Assembly: GCF_000800805.1 (NCBI RefSeq)
Contig: NZ_CP010070.1
Coordinates: forward strand, 186,001 to 250,000
Source of the DNA: Candidatus Methanoplasma termitum
GTDB lineage: Archaea; Thermoplasmatota; Thermoplasmata; Methanomassiliicoccales; Methanomethylophilaceae
Length of the DNA: 64,000 nucleotides
Direction of reading: 5' to 3'
The translations under genes were made by a program, and so were the position numbers. This document shows positions 37,521-40,039 of the stretch, piece by piece (positions within the stretch are counted from its first letter, which is position 1; each line of letters starts with the position of its first letter). Below the pieces are notes generated by a model. It was not told the DNA's origin and made no database searches. It worked only from the letters and a program-made list of their open reading frames with translations.

Positions 37521-37660
37521 GGTTCAAGCAATCTGTTGGAAGGATTTATATTATGCGCAAAATAAAGACATTGTTTATTAAGAGTAAAACTGATGATGTG
37601 GCGGCCGGATGAAGAAAGAATCGAGCTGATCAGTGATGAGCCCTATGAGTGCTGACGGCC

Positions 37661-39500: not shown

Positions 39501-39701
39501 TTACAGATCTATCCTTTCAAATGCGCCCTTAGGACAAAAGTCCTCGCACGCCCCGCACAATACGCACAGAGCGGGATCCACCTCCGGCAGGGAGTAAATG
39601 GTCTTTTGAGATATGGCGCCGTTGGGACAGACCTTGATTGCAGGGCATTTGTGATCCTGCGGACATTTTGCTTTATTTACTGTCATTATCATGATGATCA
39701 A
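39501..39701 (-). CDS. Small 4Fe-4S ferredoxin-like protein
   Basis: 66 residues with a complete CVLCGACEDFCPKGA motif (C-terminal half) and a CPQDHKCPAIKVCPNGA block in the N-terminal half, enough for one cluster and probably two. It likely serves as a small soluble electron carrier. The ATG at 39701 gives MIIMIMTVNKAKC; a start at the third ATG (39686) is also possible. Confidence 0.85.
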   Translation of the reverse strand: MIIMIMTVNKAKCPQDHKCPAIKVCPNGAISQKTIYSLPEVDPALCVLCGACEDFCPKGAFERIDL

Positions 39702-39787
39702 GATGGTGAACGGATTATAATTAAAGGTGTCTGTCGGAGCTAATTGATTTTTTGTAGCATTCGCCGAACATCAAGTGTCTCCGCGGC

Positions 39788-40039
39788 GTTAACACACTTT
39801 TTCACGGTCCGATGATGACACCGGTCTCGAAGCACTGACTTACGCCGGGAGTATGTGTCGGACCCTGCGTTGGCTTCCGGTCACGGCTGCGATGACTCAT
39901 CGCTGCTACCGCAAGAGCCCCTTTTCAGGGACAGGGTCGCTGTCAGCCGCCGCGTGCACATGGCAATCACCGATCATGCCCCTACGCCGTTACGGCTGTC
40001 ATGGGATAGTGTGATCACCGTTCTTAAAGTGTGTGCAAC
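39788..40039. ncRNA. Candidate structured non-coding RNA of about 250 bases
   Basis: The 39702-40148 gap has no credible gene but folds strongly. The ends pair: CACACTTT (39793-39800) with AAAGTGTG (40026-40033), extended by GTT/AAC. Inside, GACCCTG (39861-39867) pairs with CAGGGTC (39932-39938) around a long hairpin built on GGCT/AGCC, CGGT/ACCG and GCGATGA/TCATCGC, and around CCCT/AGGG. GCCG-TTA-CGGC is a further hairpin. A TATA-like TTATAATTAA (39715-39724) lies upstream on the + strand. RNase P, SRP and 5S signatures were not found. The strand is undecided. Confidence 0.55.

Follow-up and report, generated by a model that had tools for sequence, protein, structure and literature searches.

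A probable H/ACA guide sRNA with three hairpins, diverged from its relative HgcG, on the minus strand beside acs in Candidatus Methanoplasma termitum

We have analysed a conserved block of DNA between a ferredoxin-like ORF and acs in the 1.49 Mb genome of Candidatus Methanoplasma termitum; the window referred to below is the whole stretch of 64,000 nucleotides that contains it. Our principal conclusion, to which we assign a probability of about 95%, is that the minus strand of this block encodes an H/ACA guide sRNA with three hairpins, related to HgcG (Pab40/Pf7/Afu-4) but diverged from it, for which we propose guiding to 23S U1951 and to the 23S A-loop. Such an RNA almost certainly directs the conversion of rRNA uridines to pseudouridine. 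Housekeeping RNAs of this kind are known, but this one has diverged too far for recognition by Rfam, where the block found no match at the gathering threshold or at E 10. A preliminary description of this DNA had suggested a housekeeping RNA that has gone unrecognised in this divergent lineage, and had asked for this covariance search. That suggestion was right, and the RNA is indeed structured, conserved and covarying. The alternative suggestion of a new RNA class or family is not sustained, as intermediate homologues link the RNA to HgcG/Pab40. The features of the gene are as follows, in the order of minus-strand transcription.

40023..40028, minus strand: TATA-like box TTTAAG, position kept in 28/28 homologues
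39773..40000, minus strand: gene of the probable three-hairpin H/ACA guide sRNA (conserved block, covariation, covariance model; ends inferred)
39945..39997, minus strand: hairpin 1 (5' hairpin; helices 1–3), K-loop-like UGA...UGA apex, pocket not conserved
39941..39943, minus strand: ACA box 1 (from the alignment)
39861..39938, minus strand: hairpin 2 (helices 4–6), lower stem 39861–39867 with 39932–39938
39917..39921, minus strand: candidate 5' guide strand of hairpin 2, GGGGC (AAUGGGU in distant homologues)
39869..39872, minus strand: candidate 3' guide strand of hairpin 2, CAAC (ACAACCC in distant homologues), to the 23S A-loop
39856..39858, minus strand: ACA box 2 (from the alignment; ANA in some relatives)
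39779..39851, minus strand: hairpin 3 (3' hairpin; helices 7–10), UGA at 39802–39804 and GAG at 39826–39828
39836..39839, minus strand: candidate 5' guide strand of hairpin 3, GUCA, to UGAC after 23S U1951
39790..39793, minus strand: candidate 3' guide strand of hairpin 3, GUUA, to UAAC before 23S U1951
39776..39778, minus strand: ACA box 3, near the 3' end (from the alignment)

Structure, strand and extent of the RNA gene

The consensus fold of 28 homologues, aligned by sequence alone (MAFFT), consists of three hairpins. Standard pairs occupy 97.6% of its pair cells against 30–45% when partners are slid by one to three columns, a control that is somewhat biased in favour of the fold because the structure was predicted on the same alignment. 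Of the 54 pairs, 33 have changed on both sides, a number exceeding that of all 500 shuffles, so that the check for compensatory changes in relatives, proposed in the preliminary description, was passed decisively, albeit for the strand opposite to the one claimed there. Folding of the single sequence was unremarkable on the minus strand (z −1.53), as it was on the plus strand (z −1.72, with 11 of 200 shuffles as good). The previously noted stem GACCCTG (39861–39867) with CAGGGTC (39932–39938) is real and covaries, serving hairpin 2 as its lower stem. The hairpin GCCG-TTA-CGGC at 39986–39996 is likewise present as letters, but it amounts to local self-complementarity, the conserved pairs assigning this stretch to hairpin 1.

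Each hairpin is followed by an ACA, with boxes 1 and 2 reading ANA in some relatives, and the stem–internal loop–stem form of hairpins so marked is that of archaeal H/ACA sRNAs. The kink-turn letters UGA and GAG are invariant in the alignment while the stems around them vary, and the conserved UGA and GA/GAG letters are consistent with the upper-stem K-turn or K-loop expected of an L7Ae site. Rules set out for archaeal H/ACA RNAs comprise a K-turn or K-loop, an ANA box in which the middle letter may vary, and a distance of 14–16 nt from the ANA to the pair closing the pocket (PMC4652768). Hairpin 3 satisfies them in every family and order homologue scored, the distance being 14–16 nt in 28/28 family and 20/20 order homologues, and the spacing in hairpin 2 is compatible with the same rule.

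RNA tolerates G-U pairs but not A-C pairs, and the strand can therefore be read from the consensus fold of 29 homologues: folded as the minus strand it contains 200 G-U and 27 A-C cells, whereas the plus-strand fold contains 31 G-U and 74 A-C cells. The plus strand favoured in the preliminary description is contradicted by these counts. All 28 family homologues carry a TATA-like box whose start precedes the minus-strand 5' end by 22–28 nt, in a bin that is 93% A+T, and most of 20 order-level homologues have one in the same position. The gene would have its 5' end near 40000 and its 3' end near 39773. Compared with the limits given previously (39788–40039), the conserved block reaches 15 bases further on the left, so that the earlier edge had excluded the last ACA box, and stops about 39 bases short on the right.

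These observations bear on two readings that differ from that of a minus-strand guide RNA. The terminal pairing of CACACTTT (39793–39800) with AAAGTGTG (40026–40033) is present in the window sequence, as are the other pairings described at first, and the failure of any Rfam family to match the block would suit a plus-strand RNA of a new class closed by these arms upstream of acs. We nevertheless consider such an RNA exceedingly improbable. Relatives do not keep the pairing: their homology stops at about 39999, the 3' arm falls beyond the conserved block in the AT-rich minus-strand promoter, where the TTTAAG box overlaps it, and the terminal pairing is thus no part of the conserved RNA. Furthermore, A-C cells outnumber G-U cells in the plus-strand fold and the z-score of that fold is modest. 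An equally implausible proposal is that the block regulates acs, as a cis-acting leader or a divergent element, a role suggested by its position between the ferredoxin-like ORF and acs. The orientation of acs is opposite to that of the RNA gene, whose transcription would run away from acs, and the flanks are not conserved among relatives in which the RNA itself is. On present evidence the adjacency to acs is incidental, and the minus-strand guide sRNA is the reading retained.

The absence of a protein-coding gene and of RNase P or SRP signatures at the block, reported previously, was confirmed. A coding gene was rejected since the alignment contains indels that are not multiples of three, with no common frame apparent. 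The Rfam search detected no RNase P or SRP signature at the block, and identity with either RNA was rejected because both are encoded elsewhere in the genome, above cut-off. As to the surroundings, the ferredoxin-like small ORF (39501–39701, minus strand), with two CxxCxxC-type clusters, immediately follows the RNA gene and shares its strand. At 37605–37657 on the plus strand, 2 kb from the H/ACA gene, a match to the C/D-box RNA sR41 (56.7 bits, just above the gathering score of 54) represents a second kind of rRNA-modification guide. A recurring inverted motif resembling TACGAA...TTCGTA lies about 100 nt beyond the RNA 5' end in several relatives (L003, L005–L008, L010–L012), where it adjoins a gene other than acs.

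Distribution and relation to HgcG

Matches to the block by blastn came from 30 of 61 genomes, every one belonging to the family of the window, and the named genomes with close copies are mostly Candidatus Methanoplasma together with other Methanomassiliicoccales. With a covariance model the RNA was recovered from 133 of the order's 147 genomes, among them 72 of the 74 good genomes, nearly always in single copy, and from 68 of 245 in a sample of the whole phylum, other classes included. Many of the distant copies are shortened, and their hairpin 1 is either reduced or absent. Two genomes of the order that are more than 90% complete gave no match (G017 and G127); both are fragmented assemblies, from which loss of the RNA cannot be read.

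The link to HgcG comes from 40 distant homologues (L098–L137) collected with the model of the window RNA, of which 20 belong to the order but not to the blastn set and 20 come from elsewhere in the phylum. Rfam HgcG (RF00064, Pab40, H/ACA box) was matched by 29 of the 40, with E-values from 1.9e-16 to 0.023, always on the strand of the window-model match, and was the only Rfam family listed for them at the thresholds used. All of these matches score below the gathering score of 77 bits, and in this phylum the family is therefore concealed by the curated cut-off. The window copy itself had no match to the HgcG model at E 10, searched as the block or as the genome, and its membership is consequently transitive, through the intermediate homologues.

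In addition to the match of the whole HgcG model to distant homologues on the same strand, the known members resemble the window RNA in architecture. HgcG, known as Pab40 in P. abyssi and Pf7 in P. furiosus, is likewise an H/ACA-box RNA with three hairpins, and Afu-4 of Archaeoglobus fulgidus has three H/ACA motifs. In contrast, the HP1/HP2 H/ACA motifs of Haloferax volcanii are two hairpins set apart by a long spacer, with HP1 proposed for the equivalent of 2586; HP2 has been described as a homologue of Pf7 stem III and proposed for the equivalents of 1915 and 1917. The open-access literature searched contained nothing specific on H/ACA RNAs in Methanomassiliicoccales or Thermoplasma.

Predicted targets of the three hairpins

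We infer a pathway of sRNA transcription, RNP assembly (L7Ae, Cbf5-Nop10-Gar1) and pseudouridylation, and a gene for the pseudouridine synthase Cbf5 is present in the genome above the curated cut-off. Transcription of the minus-strand gene would yield the three-hairpin sRNA, to which L7Ae would bind at the kink-turn or K-loop of each hairpin and Cbf5-Nop10-Gar1 at each ANA box; a stretch of rRNA held in the internal loop would then present a single uridine for conversion to pseudouridine by Cbf5.

Hairpin 3 would guide pseudouridylation of 23S U1951, which aligns to E. coli U1915 in helix 69. Watson–Crick pairing of 4+4 with GUCA/GUUA is possible at only one uridine in the 16S and 23S rRNAs of the window genome, and this is U1951; among 400 random guides a 4+4 site was found for 6 and a 6+4 site for none. 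The hairpin 3 pocket elsewhere reads GGGUCA/GUUA. Scored against the rRNA of the window genome rather than each genome's own, the 5' guide forms 6–7 pairs with UGACCC in 28 of 48 homologues (8/28 of the family and 20/20 of the order). Nine distant rows of the guide table did not pass the spacing filter, and their guides were taken from the sequences by visual inspection. With the window-family guides alone, and a null of shuffled columns, U1951 was again the best site (p 0.043). An unrestricted guide scan gave 16S 756, 16S 394 and 23S 291, which scored better than the rule-based sites and were misleading: the two 16S positions were rejected for pocket offsets outside the 14–16 nt rule (PMC4652768), and 23S 291 has no E. 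coli uridine aligned with it. The preferred site coincides with that of known relatives, for Pab40, Pf7 and Afu-4 have been reported to guide the 1915 equivalent. In Pab40 this is the task of the third hairpin and in Afu-4 the third motif can guide L1970, the 1915 equivalent, and by complementarity hairpin 3 of the window RNA is predicted to act at this same site. The yeast snoRNA snR191, which guides Psi2258/2260 in helix 69, is comparable in target site, although it and snR10 are eukaryotic snoRNAs from separate genes.

Hairpin 2 would direct pseudouridylation of U2584 or U2585 (E. coli 2554/2555) in the A-loop, and its guide sequences fit this assignment. The order-consensus guides pair 6+6 at one site only, 23S U2584, the equivalent of E. 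coli 2554, and the same site was best for the window-family guides, at a level that was not significant (shuffle p 0.18). A yeast pseudouridine at E. coli 2554 has been mentioned, and Thermoplasmatota have uridines at 2554–2555 (PMC9976906). The yeast Psi2923 guided by snR10, adjoining Um2921/Gm2922, is comparable in position. This target differs from those of hairpins 1 and 2 of Pab40 (L2588 and L1932) and from the other targets of Afu-4 (S1167 and L2601), an RNA likened to ours by description only, and the literature examined gave no A-loop 2554/2555 target for this RNA family in archaea. In four phylum homologues of one family (L127, L130, L132, L136) the hairpin 2 pocket strand is CCAGAGG/CCAGAAG instead of ACAACCC, which suggests that the middle hairpin has been retargeted in that lineage.

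Hairpin 1 has no conserved target, and its pocket is variable. Its best match, 16S U990, was rejected (shuffle p 0.16, guide not kept in all lineages). A hairpin 1 pocket strand, UUGGCAAU, is common to L119, L120, L125 and L126, from another lineage, in which this hairpin may be a working guide. Taken across Thermoplasmatota, we give an even chance to the proposal that the middle hairpin of the HgcG-related RNA guides an A-loop (2554/2555) pseudouridine while the hairpin 1 guide has been lost or changed from lineage to lineage.

The variable pocket of hairpin 1 and the short guide duplexes of Methanoplasma, 4+4 in hairpin 3, could also be taken to mean that the guides are relics in an H/ACA sRNA which, in Methanoplasma, serves other RNAs or has a structural role, and it has been suggested that archaeal H/ACA RNAs have targets outside the ribosome (PMC4652768). 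We regard this reading as very unlikely. The letters of the U1915 pocket are kept in all family homologues while the stems vary, and in other lineages the guide is longer, both of which argue for an RNA that guides at U1951.

Implications for rRNA modification in these archaea

The window RNA is thus diverged and unannotated but not categorically new, and the HgcG model with its cut-off misses whole orders, leaving this housekeeping RNA unannotated there. Our analysis provides archaeal orders with an H/ACA guide RNA where the literature searched had none, names for those orders the likely maker of the widely conserved Psi1915 of helix 69, and predicts a pseudouridine in the A-loop that is directly testable.
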